DNA from: a virus
Virus record (IMG/VR): IMGVR_UViG_3300047666_000929
Coordinates: 1 to 21,856 of that record
Direction: 5' to 3' (one strand)
Length of the DNA: 21,856 nucleotides
The stretch's first letter is position 1. Each line of letters starts with the position of its first letter. Shown piece after piece: positions 1,999 through 13,397 of the stretch. A program made the position numbers and the translations under genes. Under the pieces are notes generated by a model that ran no database searches, had not been told where the DNA came from, and saw only the letters and a program-made list of their open reading frames with translations.

Positions 1999-3588
1999 AT
2001 GATGAAACAAAAATTAGTCAACTCAATAATAGAAAGATTGGAAACAGAAGTATCGCCAAGGAATCCTGTGAAGTTCTTAAAAGATCTAGACGCAAGCGTG
2101 ATCACAGACCAGGCAATTGGTTACATATACCTTTACACAAGAGTAGGTAGAGGTAGCCGAAAGAAGTCAGTGCTGATGGCTGAAATCATATCAGCAATAG
2201 GCCACGGTGTACGTGACAAAGCAGGTCTCAAGAAGAATAGCGCATTGGCTGCAAAAGCTGGCGCATTTATCTTGTACACGTTTGAGGTACTTGGGTATCT
2301 CCACACATTGAAGGGACGAGCTGGAAATGGTCACAGCACATATCTCATAGAAGTGGATGATGAAGAAGGCTTGTCTTTATTATGGAGCAAGCTGGAGGCT
2401 GATAAAACAGAGAAGCTCCCATCATTAACGCCACACGTACCATGGTTGTCAACTAAACATAGTACAGGCGCAAGGCTTGTGAAGACACAAGATAAGGGTG
2501 TACTGCAAGAACTGTCTATTGAAAACTGCCCGCTGGTGTATGAGTCAGTGAACAGGTCTCAACAAGTTGGCTGGCGTGTTAATGAAGAGATATATGAGAT
2601 ATACACGTGGGCGTTACGAAACAAAACAGACGCTTTCTCAGATATATGGGAGATTCAAAATCCTCAAGCAAAGGCCAGCAAGACGCGTGAAGCAAAAGCT
2701 GTTGGCGACATAGCGAAGAGGTTCCTTGGAAAGACCTTTTATCATCTATATTATCTTGACTTTAGAGGACGTAAGTACCCAGCTACGGCATACTTTCATG
2801 AACAAGGGACCGATCTGAGTAAAGGCTTGCTGCTCAGAGAAGATAAAGCTCCAATAGGCGAACAGGGCTATTACTGGTTACTGATAAGTATCGCATCCAA
2901 TTGGGCAGGTGACGCTGGTCGTGAAGATGGTCTCAAAACTGATAAGATACCTTTGAACGACCGTGTGTATTGGGCGCTAGATAATGAAGAGATTCTGTTA
3001 TCATATGTTGAGAATCCAAAGGTCAATCAAGGGTGGATGAAAGCTGACAAACCTTGGCAATTCTTAGCGGCTTGCAACGAATGGTTGAACCTGATAAGAT
3101 GGCAGGAAGCGCATACGGGACATAAGGTGTTAGGATATGACGGAGAGGTTACCATATCTGATCCTGATTATGAAGATTATAGCTATGAAAGCCACCTTGA
3201 GTGTTATATCGATGGTTCCAATAATGGGTCTCAGCATTTGTCAGCATTGACCAGAGATGATGTAACAGCACCGCATGTCAATCTAGTTCCTTCAGACCTT
3301 CCTGGAGATCTATACAAATATGTGGCGGATCATGTATGGGAGACTATCGACAAGGAGAAAGATGAGCTGACTCGTAGGGAGTTTAAAGCATGTGAAAGCG
3401 TCATCGATACCCTTGCTGATGAGAAGACTCAGATAAACTTAGCGCCTCTCAAGTCAGAAAGAAGGAAAGAGCTTATTGAAGACTTGATTAAGTTTAAGAG
3501 AGCTGAGGCAGAGACTATCGGTAAAGCCGCCTGCGTATTCTGGAGCAATGTGAAAGATGCAAAGCACCGAAGAAAGGTCGTGAAGCGT
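1999..3588 (+). CDS. Phage RNA polymerase, exon 1 (residues 1-530)
   Basis: First exon of a T7-type single-subunit DNA-directed RNA polymerase, which would transcribe phage genes independently of the host enzyme. The palm signature YYLDFRGRKYP (T7 has NMDWRGRVY) and catalytic motif A with Asp405 in YIDGSNNGSQH are plain. The exon ends on KR, the start of motif B (Lys529, Arg530, matching T7 Lys631 and Arg632). Translation would stop at a TAA three bases into intron 1, giving a truncated inactive product without splicing. The joined protein is 762 residues against 883 in T7; the N-terminal promoter-binding domain is the shortened part. AGGA precedes the ATG at 1999; an ATG directly after it is an alternative. 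Confidence 0.95.
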
Positions 3589-3883
3589 TAATAACATGGC
3601 GCTTTTAAAACAATGTGAATTCGGGGAACATCTAGAACAGACAATCCCGAGCCAAGCTTAGCTAAGGCTTTGAAGGTGTAGAGACTATCCTGAGAAGGAG
3701 TACACTCAAGTGAGTGGAAGCGCATTGGGTCAGAAATGATCATGATATAGTCCGATCTACATGGGGACATGTAGTAATTTAAGGAAGCTTATGAGGCTTA
3801 TTGTGCTAAAGCGATTGAGCATTATGGCGAGTTTGCTAAATTAGATTGATATATATTTAACGAATATATATTTAACATAAATG
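3589..3883 (+). ncRNA. Group I intron 1 in RNA polymerase
   Basis: A 295-nt self-splicing-type intron. P1: exon AAGCGU pairs with internal guide GCGCUU (near 3600-3606), with the required U-G at the splice site. P10: UAACAU just before the guide pairs with AUGUUA at the start of exon 2. P7 is GACTAT (3683-3688) with ATAGTC (3747-3752). P8 is CACTC/GAGTG (3703-3716). P9 is CTACATG/CATGTAG with a GGGA tetraloop (3757-3774). A late hairpin at 3848-3872 has loop TTAACGAA. The intron ends on G at 3883. Removal joins KR to NVMTLPYG, which aligns gap-free with T7 KRSVMTLAYG. It is clearly related to intron 2. Confidence 0.9.
3781..3849 (+). pseudogene. Remnant of intron HNH/AP2 endonuclease C-terminus
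   Basis: Twenty-two codons plus a stop inside intron 1 read KEAYEAYC...HYGEFAKLD. This resembles the usual end of AP2-domain HNH homing endonucleases found in phage introns. An in-frame stop lies just upstream (3775-3777), and there is no start codon or nuclease domain. The rest of the gene appears to have been deleted, leaving the fragment between P9 and the final hairpin of the intron. Confidence 0.65.
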
Positions 3884-3928
3884 AATGTTATGACGCTCCC
3901 GTATGGCGGAACAGCGTATGGTTTGGGT
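3884..3928 (+). CDS. Phage RNA polymerase, mini-exon 2 (residues 531-545)
   Basis: A 45-nt exon of exactly 15 codons encoding NVMTLPYGGTAYGLG. This is the bulk of RNA polymerase motif B (O-helix), including Tyr537, equivalent to T7 Tyr639, which selects ribonucleotides. It is bounded by two group I introns. The phase is 0 on both sides, and each upstream exon ends with T as group I splicing requires. Confidence 0.9.
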
Positions 3929-4644
3929 TAATTCGGCTCAATTAAAACACCTTTAATTGCTGGGACATCCCTCTGGGACAATCAGCAGCCAAGCTTAGCC
4001 TTAGGGCTTTGAAGGTTCAACGACTATTCCGAAAGGAAGTACACTCAAGTGAGTGGAAACGGGGTGCACCGAAAGGTGAAGATATAGTCTAGTCTGCATG
4101 GTAACATGCAGCAGATCGTGGTCTCCAACGTTAGGAGAAGAATGTGAACAAAGAAGAAATACTAAGATTATACGAATATAGGGATGGGGAACTTTATTGG
4201 AGAGTAGCTAGATCCAATAGGGTTAAAGTAGGGCAACTCGCTGGTGATGTTGATGGGAGAGGTTACAGACGTGTGTACTCAAACGGCAGGCACTGGAAGG
4301 TACACCGACTTATTTGGATTATGCATAACAGATTCTTAGATGACAATGAGATCATAGATCGCATAGATCGAGATAGGACAAATAATAGGATAGAAAACCT
4401 TCGCTTGTCAAATAAATCAGCTAATGCCATAAACTCAGATTTTACGGAAAGAGCAAAAGGATACCACTATGATTCCAATCGTGGAAAGTGGCGCGCTCAA
4501 ATATCTATAAATAACAAGTCTGTTACATTAGGCAGATTCGATACAAAAGAAGAAGCTCAAGCTGCTTATGCTGAAGCTTGCAAGACCAGAAAACAATAAA
4601 GACCACGATCGGGGCGTGCTTAACGAACACGCTTGAATACAACG
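3929..4644 (+). ncRNA. Group I intron 2 in RNA polymerase, with endonuclease gene
   Basis: A 716-nt intron. P1: exon UUGGGU pairs with GCUCAA near 3936-3941, with U-G at the splice site. P7 is GACTAT (4022-4027) with ATAGTC (4084-4089). The P8 sequence GTACACTCAAGTGAGTGGAA is identical to intron 1. P9 is CTGCATG/CATGCAG with a GTAA loop (4094-4111). An 11-bp helix (4114-4124 with 4600-4610) encloses the endonuclease gene. A final hairpin at 4614-4632 has the TTAACGAA loop seen in intron 1. The 3' end at G4644 gives GLG-QQQIDDA, gap-free against T7 GFRQQVLED, and places 12 nt after the hairpin as in intron 1. G4635 is an alternative that would insert Asn-Thr-Thr. Confidence 0.9.
4144..4599 (+). 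CDS. Intron-encoded HNH/AP2 homing endonuclease, probably inactive
   Basis: A 151-residue protein of the HNH_3 plus AP2 type that normally nicks intronless alleles to spread its intron. The HNH region lies at about 58-92 (VHRLIWIMHNRF, then NNRIENLRL). An AP2-like DNA-binding domain follows at about 105-145 (KGYHYDSNRGKWRAQI, LGRFDTKEEAQAAY). The usual Asp-His-Ile-Asp core reads Asp-Arg-Ile-Asp: residue 73 is Arg (CGC at 4360-4362), where the general-base His (CAC or CAT) is expected, so nuclease activity is doubtful. The C-terminus also stops before the common HGEFA tail. Translation starts at GTG 4144 after AGGAGAAG; the overlapping ATG at 4142 stops at once. Confidence 0.9.
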   Translation: MNKEEILRLYEYRDGELYWRVARSNRVKVGQLAGDVDGRGYRRVYSNGRHWKVHRLIWIMHNRFLDDNEIIDRIDRDRTNNRIENLRLSNKSANAINSDFTERAKGYHYDSNRGKWRAQISINNKSVTLGRFDTKEEAQAAYAEACKTRKQ

Positions 4645-5298
4645 CAACAACAGATAGACGATGCTAGGAAGCATGGCATTGAGAGCCTGATGACTATGGA
4701 GCACAAATGGGGAAGCTATATGGGAAGAATGGTTTTCGAGGATTGTAGAGTCTCTCTCAAGAAGCCTATGCAGTTGTTAAGCGTTTTTGAACAAGCAGGC
4801 AAGCTGGCAGAACAAGAAGATAGGTTCTTAAGCTGGCATACACCTGTGACGAATTTCCCTGTGGTGCAGCATTACACAGAAGGCACAACCAAAAAGGTTC
4901 ACATACAGTACGGGCCACAGGTAGGTGAAAAGCTATCAACGGGCTACTATTCGAATGATAGACAATTACATATATGTTTTATCGAACTTGTGAAACCTAG
5001 CAAGAGGAAACAGTCCTCTGGAGCATCGCCTAATGCCATCCACTCACTTGATGCCACGCATCTAACAATGACGGTATGCGCTGCGCCGTTTCATGTGACG
5101 ACTATCCATGACTCTTTCGGATGTCTTCTCGGTGATATGTCAGACTTATTTGTAATTGTAAGGCAATCTTTTGTAGATTTATATAAAGAGAATCCATTGG
5201 AATCCCTGATGGAAGAAATAGGAGGTGACATAACAACGCTAGAAATGGGTAATTTAGATATTGAAGCAATAATGGACAGCGAATACGCATTCGCATAA
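4645..5298 (+). CDS. Phage RNA polymerase, exon 3 (residues 546-762)
   Basis: C-terminal exon of the T7-type RNA polymerase. It starts QQQIDDARKHG, continuing motif B. It then carries the fingers/specificity-loop region and ASPNAIHSLDATHL, matching T7 APNFVHSQDGSHL. Catalytic motif C follows with Asp701 in TIHDSFG (T7 Asp812). The protein ends DSEYAFA, closely matching the T7 terminus DSDFAFA, where the last Phe-Ala is needed for activity. An unspliced reading could begin at TTG 4633 but would lack motifs A and B. All catalytic residues are present after joining the three exons, so a functional 762-residue enzyme is expected. Confidence 0.93.
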   Translation, partial: QQQIDDARKHGIESLMTMEHKWGSYMGRMVFEDCRVSLKKPMQLLSVFEQAGKLAEQEDRFLSWHTPVTNFPVVQHYTEGTTKKVHIQYGPQVGEKLSTGYYSNDRQLHICFIELVKPSKRKQSSGASPNAIHSLDATHLTMTVCAAPFHVTTIHDSFGCLLGDMSDLFVIVRQSFVDLYKENPLESLMEEIGGDITTLEMGNLDIEAIMDSEYAFA

Positions 5299-12764: not shown

Positions 12765-13397
12765 ATGAGTGTGCCTAAGTTCCCGCTAAGAGGAAAAGGT
12801 AAGATTAAATCTAAGAAGGCTTTCCTTCCTGACCTTCAAAATGAGCGTGTAAAACCTAACCAGATAACTAGCGTTTGGATAGACGAAGCAGGAGAGATAT
12901 CTGAAAGAAAACCCTCAGTATCATTAGAAGGGCAGGTCGGAAAGCGTGTTAACCGAAAGAAATATGACGATCTTCCTAACGGTCATTGGGAGTTCGAGGG
13001 CGATATGCGAAGCGGAAAAGCTGTTGGCTTCATATACGTCATTAAAGATCTCAGAAATAATATGCTGTATCTTGGAAAGAAGAGTTATGTAGGGGCGGGT
13101 AAGTTAAACAAAGGTGTAGAGTCAAACTGGCGGTGGTATATATCGTCATCTAAACTCTTAAGTGAATCAGTTAAGACAAACGGTAAAGAAAACTTCAAAT
13201 TTTATGCTATAGAAGAGTATAGCTTTAAAGGTGGGCTAAGCTTTGCTGAGACATGGTCTCTCTGTAAGGTGGAAGCTCTGAACGAAAACAGCCGTTGGTA
13301 TAATGGTCTGATTGGGAAGGTATCTTGGAAAGTTAAAGAACCTGTAACAGCTAGACACAGAAGGCGACTTCAACAGATAATAGATGGAGAGATATGA
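12765..13397 (+). CDS. GIY-YIG family nuclease
   Basis: A 210-residue protein with a GIY-YIG-like nuclease core from about 88 to 180. FIYVI (89-93) and LYLGKK (101-106) stand for the GIY and YIG strands, followed by a probable catalytic Glu162 in SFAETWSL and WYNGLIG (178-184). The N-terminal 85 residues are basic and unassigned. Phage members of this family act as free-standing endonucleases or junction-cutting enzymes. Its place between the exonuclease and primase-helicase genes would suit a recombination or branched-DNA nuclease in place of T7 endonuclease I, but that is inference. Confidence 0.7.
   Translation: MSVPKFPLRGKGKIKSKKAFLPDLQNERVKPNQITSVWIDEAGEISERKPSVSLEGQVGKRVNRKKYDDLPNGHWEFEGDMRSGKAVGFIYVIKDLRNNMLYLGKKSYVGAGKLNKGVESNWRWYISSSKLLSESVKTNGKENFKFYAIEEYSFKGGLSFAETWSLCKVEALNENSRWYNGLIGKVSWKVKEPVTARHRRRLQQIIDGEI

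Follow-up and report, generated by a model that had tools for sequence, protein, structure and literature searches.

The window, that is, the whole 21.9-kb viral fragment (21,856 nucleotides) analysed here, carries on its plus strand a gene for a T7-like RNA polymerase that is divided into three exons by two group I introns. Exon 1 (1999-3588; 530 codons, ending in Lys-Arg) was delimited by its open reading frame, by a match to PF00940 and by alignment to T7 RNA polymerase. It is followed by intron 1 (3589-3883; 295 nt), by a mini-exon of 45 nt (3884-3928) which encodes NVMTLPYGGTAYGLG and corresponds to residues 633-647 of T7, by intron 2 (3929-4644; 716 nt), and by exon 3 (4645-5298), which reads from QQQIDD to DSEYAFA and a stop codon. 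Alignments to relatives and to T7 place the mini-exon and exon 3, and the products of exon 1 and exon 3 both match PF00940. A complete endonuclease gene is absent from intron 1; intron 2 holds a GTG-initiated frame of 151 aa (4144-4599).

The covariance search that the initial annotation had suggested as a check bears out its proposal of two group I introns. Two matches to RF00028 exceed the gathering score of 50, one of 84.2 bits (E 1.9e-20; 3849-4111) for intron 2, which uses the terminal hairpin of intron 1 as its P1, and one of 58.1 bits (E 1.3e-12; 3579-3774) for intron 1, and no further Rfam family was detected in the whole window at E<=1. The boundaries of intron 1 were set with intronless relatives and the P1 and P10 pairings, those of intron 2 with an intron at the same site in a related contig (L164). 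The internal guides named at the outset, GCGCUU (3599-3604) and GCUCAA (3936-3941), do pair with the exon ends AAGCGT (3583-3588) and TTGGGT (3923-3928), with a U.G pair at each splice site, and both introns close with a terminal G. In intron 1, the P10 strand ATAACAT (3591-3597) pairs at 7/7 positions with the mini-exon (ATGTTAT, 3885-3891). Because P10 is 7 bp long and changes in step with the exon at the same site in L038 (ATGTAAT/ATTGCAT) and L184 (GAGTA/TACTT), the 3' splice site of intron 1 is well fixed. A P10 was also sought for intron 2, and no recognisable pairing was found. The 3' end of this intron reads TTGAATACAACG. An alternative start of exon 3 at 4636, giving GLG-NTTQQQ, was rejected, as the relatives read GLG-QQ and as all related introns share the same end after the last hairpin, which places the start at 4645. 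The initial intron 2 end at 4644 and the spacing of exactly 45 nt were both correct.

With both introns removed, the exons join into a T7-like RNA polymerase of 762 aa whose reading frame is intact in all exons. This protein aligns without gaps through the intron region to 13 intronless relatives, a comparison likewise foreseen in the initial annotation, and the gap-free match to T7 RNA polymerase reported there holds (E 2.4e-45; query 525-762 against T7 627-883, with R525 at T7 R627). The mini-exon had been equated with motif B, the O-helix. It does encode the Tyr639 region (N531-G545, with Tyr537 at T7 Tyr639), namely the distal half of the O-helix plus the turn after it, but it holds motif B only in part, since the equivalents of Lys631 and Arg632 (K529 and R530) sit in exon 1. 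Tyr639 of T7 RNA polymerase has a role in choosing ribonucleotides. An in-frame TAA begins each intron; unspliced RNA can therefore encode no more than the first 530 residues, a truncated product that would lack the Tyr639 region.

Ribozyme structure

The secondary structure was examined in an alignment of 17 introns of this polymerase gene family, in which we assigned the pairs of P3, P4, P5, P7 and P9. These pairs are standard in 98.7% of cells, a percentage biased towards intron 1, on which the structure was drawn; the double changes in P3 are unaffected by this. Both sides have changed in 16 of the 28 pairs, with 88 double-changed cells observed against 24.1 in shuffles, and sliding the partner strands lowers pairing to 30-49% (best 49.4%). 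Double changes occur in five of the seven pairs of P3, whose 5' strand in intron 1 (CAATGTG, 3611-3617) pairs with CGCATTG (3721-3727). P4, P5 and P9 covary too, and P7 (GACTA/TAGTC) is invariant.

Rfam matches and covariation alignment agree on the P9 hairpins, CTACATG-GGGA-CATGTAG in intron 1 (3757-3774) and CTGCATG-GTAA-CATGCAG in intron 2 (4094-4111), and a survey of loops located the terminal hairpins at 3848-3872 (loop TTAACGA(A)) and 4612-4634 (loop CTTAACGAA). Between P7 and P3', inspection revealed two further hairpins in each intron, TCCT-GAGA-AGGA and CACTCAAGTGAGTG in intron 1, and TTCC-GAAA-GGAA with the same second hairpin (CACTCAAGTGAGTG) in intron 2. As judged by eye, this pair of extra hairpins (P7.1, P7.2) would fit subgroup IA (IA1/IA2).

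Intron sites and probable homing in the polymerase clade

Relatives were collected from viral contigs by searches with the spliced protein and then by alignment, with at most 80 loci per search set, and all loci of the clade lie on metagenomic contigs. After removal of near-duplicates, the comparison set comprised 77 polymerases including that of the window, 58 of them intronless and 19 with introns. The polymerase genes of this clade have at least six intron sites and carry between zero and four introns each: site A after FYH, site B between DG and SNN, site B2 slightly beyond it (in L174 only), site C between KR and NVMT, site D within the Tyr639 codon, and site E between GLG and Q. Intron 1 of the window occupies site C and intron 2 site E. 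Four introns (A, B2, C and D) are found in L174. Site C is also occupied in ten other loci (L032, L033, L038, L173, L174, L175, L177, L178 (= L172), L180 and L184), where most of the introns contain full endonucleases, and site E also in L164. When C and D are occupied together, as in L174 (3649-3667, on the reverse strand of the locus), L177 (14018-14036) and L180 (3981-3999), they enclose an exon of only 19 nt (AATGTTATGGTTCTTCCGT, AATGTTATGACACTTCCGT, AACGTAATGACTATTCCGT); in L177, seven of these nucleotides contribute to the P10 of the site-C intron and six to seven to the P1 of the site-D intron. The site-D intron of L177 (14036-14566) has an extra small ORF between P7 and P3', and its P4-P5 region closely resembles that of the neighbouring site-C intron.

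The T7-like polymerase genes of Pectobacterium phages PPWS1 and PPWS2 and Pseudomonas phages Draal01-03 contain, in the O-helix region, a related insertion that resembles an intron and holds an ORF (L202, PPWS1, about 2498-3244; L203, Draal03, about 2504-3275). It differs from the introns of the window in being single, in using a further site, P-V/M-T inside the Val codon, and in carrying its ORF within the core. These polymerase genes are annotated only as two fragments, and the insertion has no Rfam match at threshold. At the gathering score, just six group I matches were obtained in 14 loci of relatives, so that most introns of the relatives were missed, as were both introns of the isolates, whose cores are interrupted by the ORF. 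The lack of an Rfam match is therefore no evidence against an intron here. On these sequence comparisons, several unrelated intron lineages appear to invade the O-helix coding region repeatedly.

Several observations bear on how the introns have spread. On the RNA polymerase tree, the presence of an intron at site C is patchy, requiring 11 changes for 11 carriers, and two almost identical polymerases (L042 and L048) carry different introns, at A and B in the one and at A and D in the other. L173, a site-C carrier, and L108, in which no intron match was found, encode near-identical polymerases with flanks that are 91% (5') and 98.8% (3') identical, and the codons just upstream of the site read AAGCGT in the carrier versus AAGAGA in the empty allele. 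This upstream difference suggests homing with upstream co-conversion of the exon, from which it would be expected. AAGCGT occurs in only 6 of 64 distinct intronless site-C sequences; its frequency among site-C carriers is biased, as the pattern by which some of them were found contained AAGCGT, and site-E introns were likewise sampled in part by splice-site patterns. The nearest relative of the window (L036) looks like an unoccupied target, because it has AAGCGT and no intron. The gene would thus be a repeated homing target within the clade, presumably through the conservation of the O-helix coding sequence.

In intron 2, the means of homing seem to be preserved. Its homing endonuclease matches HNH_3 (47.3 bits, 1.5e-12) and AP2 (33.3 bits, 6e-8) of Pfam as well as the HNH endonuclease family phrog_99 (3.6e-49), and with the HNH-AP2 frame intact the intron is presumably still mobile. 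A search of viral contigs with this endonuclease returned three weak relatives only, none of them a same-site intron; L164, which has such an intron, came from the RNA polymerase alignment search instead. Intron 1 retains a remnant of 23 codons (FKEAYEAYCAKAIEHYGEFAKLD and a stop, 3778-3849), which is identical at 18 of 23 positions to the C-terminus of the endonuclease in the site-C intron of L032 (score 105, shuffled maximum 56). Against the endonuclease of intron 2, the remnant scores 19, at the level of noise. Because the remnant matches a site-C endonuclease tail, intron 1 is best read as an endonuclease-deleted site-C intron, which would descend from an endonuclease-bearing homing intron through loss of an internal segment that spared the final 23 endonuclease codons.

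The descent of its core is less straightforward. When 42 intron cores were placed in a tree, that of intron 1 came closest to L073 and lay apart from the other site-C cores. As it does not nest among them, core recombination is possible, and intron 1 could be a chimera in which site-C ends and endonuclease tail were joined to a core from another intron. Consistent with this, both of its ends, its P10 and its endonuclease tail are of site-C type. The placement, however, depends on weak nodes (65/91), and a single site-C clade is not rejected (p-AU 0.168). We consider a chimeric origin unlikely, albeit a serious candidate, and prefer simple descent with loss of the endonuclease.

Predicted splicing across the mini-exon and the need for it

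The account of splicing given here is deduced from the sequence. Each ribozyme would pick its own 5' splice site through its guide, and since the two guides are dissimilar, both introns should excise separately with the 45-nt exon retained. Self-splicing of the two introns, in either order, would then produce the 762-aa polymerase. Alternatively, the mini-exon might be skipped in part or for the most part, which would join KR to QQQ in frame and remove 15 residues including Tyr639, leaving a polymerase that is probably inactive. Such skipping has precedents with exons of 23 nt and 34 nt, Twort orf142 among them (PMC10136302), and in SIOphi (PMC11878797). Against it, the product would lose a motif conserved in all relatives, and each guide matches the exon of the other intron at only three of six positions. 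When Tetrahymena introns were engineered in tandem, moreover, dissimilar P1, P10 and P9 elements suppressed exon skipping (PMC10136302). Skipping on such a scale therefore seems improbable to us. We regard as rather far-fetched a regulatory version of this idea, in which the tandem ribozymes would act as a gate, with exon inclusion or skipping, or delayed double splicing, setting the timing and amount of active polymerase and thereby keeping O-helix introns in the clade. Were it true, the 19-nt exon would be its extreme case, with most of its bases in P10 or P1.

Returning to separate excision with retention of the exon, its weight for the phage may be smaller than first proposed. In all 12 longer relatives, another T7-like polymerase match lies apart from the intron-bearing gene, mostly within a reading frame of about 1540-1640 aa, with shorter frames in a few relatives; the stretch with this second domain is 1-3120 in L200 and 91-3456 in L201, and for two of these ORFs matches to RNA polymerase families of PHROG were obtained. 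The second polymerase was seen in these longer relatives and does not appear in the 21.9 kb covered by the window. In N4-like phages, a virion polymerase transcribes the early genes, and by analogy the second polymerase may be a virion polymerase that serves early genes. Because the long relatives encode it, transcription need depend on two splicing events only in part, and the claim that phage transcription as such depends on them was overstated.

Two intron lineages and their place among known introns

The initial annotation held that the two introns are close siblings, one probably derived from the other or from a near relative, and it relied on the compensatory change in P9 and on the loop TTAACGAA shared by the last hairpins. 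Both features have the sequences described. The loop (as TA[AG]CG), however, is present in 28 of 29 polymerase introns, as well as in 19 of 21 introns of other genes, and related introns are commonly polymorphic for the P9 swap. As both are family-wide, neither marks a recent copy, and they were dropped as evidence of sibling origin. Two resemblances remain in favour of a recent copy made by transposition within the gene: introns 1 and 2 are 70% identical over 171 core columns, and they are locally similar in the P6a/P7.2 stretch. Intron 1 is closer to an intron on another contig (76%), both introns having such closer relatives, at 76%, in other phages. The P7.2-region likeness is widespread, since a pattern built on it matches 27 stretches in viral contigs.

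Within the 42-core tree, the sister of intron 2 is the intron that L164 has at site E (support 95/91), and the two nest in a larger clade (100/99) whose introns come from other phage genes and have the same P4 class, AATTGC. The P4 class of intron 1 is AATTC. Forcing the two introns to be sisters costs 59 log-likelihood units and is rejected (p-AU 0.015). A same-site relative exists for each intron, and the endonuclease remnant of intron 1 is unrelated to the endonuclease of intron 2. A copy made within the gene is thus highly implausible, and the claim of close siblings falls; each intron has its own lineage. Very probably, then, two independent group I lineages have settled at neighbouring O-helix target sites in the gene for a single-subunit phage RNA polymerase.

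Intron-like sequences of the AATTGC class in which, as in intron 2, the exon ends in TTGGGT and the guide is GCTCAA are also present in other genes (L186, L187, L193, L195 and L196), where they were found by a pattern built on these very letters. They are a possible source of the site-E intron.

That the gene is instead decayed or split, its pieces acting as separate proteins without splicing, is hardly credible: mechanical annotation does give two ORFs (1999-3591 and 4633-5298), as for the polymerases of PPWS1 and Draal03, but the 15 residues with Tyr639 are absent from both, all exons keep an intact frame, and exact P1 and P10 pairings, terminal G and covarying cores recur at identical positions in many phages. 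Phage polymerase genes annotated as split may, by the same token, be intact after splicing.

Mobile group IA introns with endonucleases are known from T4 td and from T7-like DNA polymerases, nucleotide and replication genes with one intron per gene. They resemble the introns of the window and differ from them in the host gene and in being single. Pf-WMP3 I-PfoP3I is an example of the T7-like DNA-polymerase system (PMC3428280). That a phage core gene may contain several group I introns, with tiny exons between them, is already known. The closest likeness is to introns 2 and 3 of Twort orf142, two group IA2 introns around a 23-nt exon of a tail tube gene, for which skipping was observed (PMC10136302). 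Those introns are highly similar to each other, whereas the window combines two differing lineages around a 45-nt exon (19 nt in three relatives). The Twort exon is the shortest of its kind in the literature searched, and shorter ones may be reported elsewhere (PMC10136302). Several group I introns per core gene also occur in the Bastillevirinae phages phiNIT1 (ribonucleotide reductase) and SIOphi (terminase), where a small exon lies between two introns and skipping was seen by cDNA; these introns are in other genes, an RNA polymerase case not being found there (PMC11878797). In crAss-like phages, three introns interrupt one capsid gene (PMC10136315). The literature searched yielded no account of a T7-like phage RNA polymerase gene with group I introns, and the window is a striking case of a known kind, with tandem introns in such a gene.

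Together with its relatives, the polymerase gene forms a natural series. Its members carry from none to four group I introns, distributed over six sites; alleles with and without an intron are both represented, some intron copies bear an endonuclease and others have lost it, and there are exons 45 nt and 19 nt long. The series makes testable the minimum exon length between two group I introns, interference or exon skipping between neighbouring ribozymes, and the sharing of one conserved target by competing homing elements. Elsewhere in the window (12765-13397), a free-standing GIY-YIG SegE-like endonuclease (PF19835, 63.1 bits) lies between replication genes.
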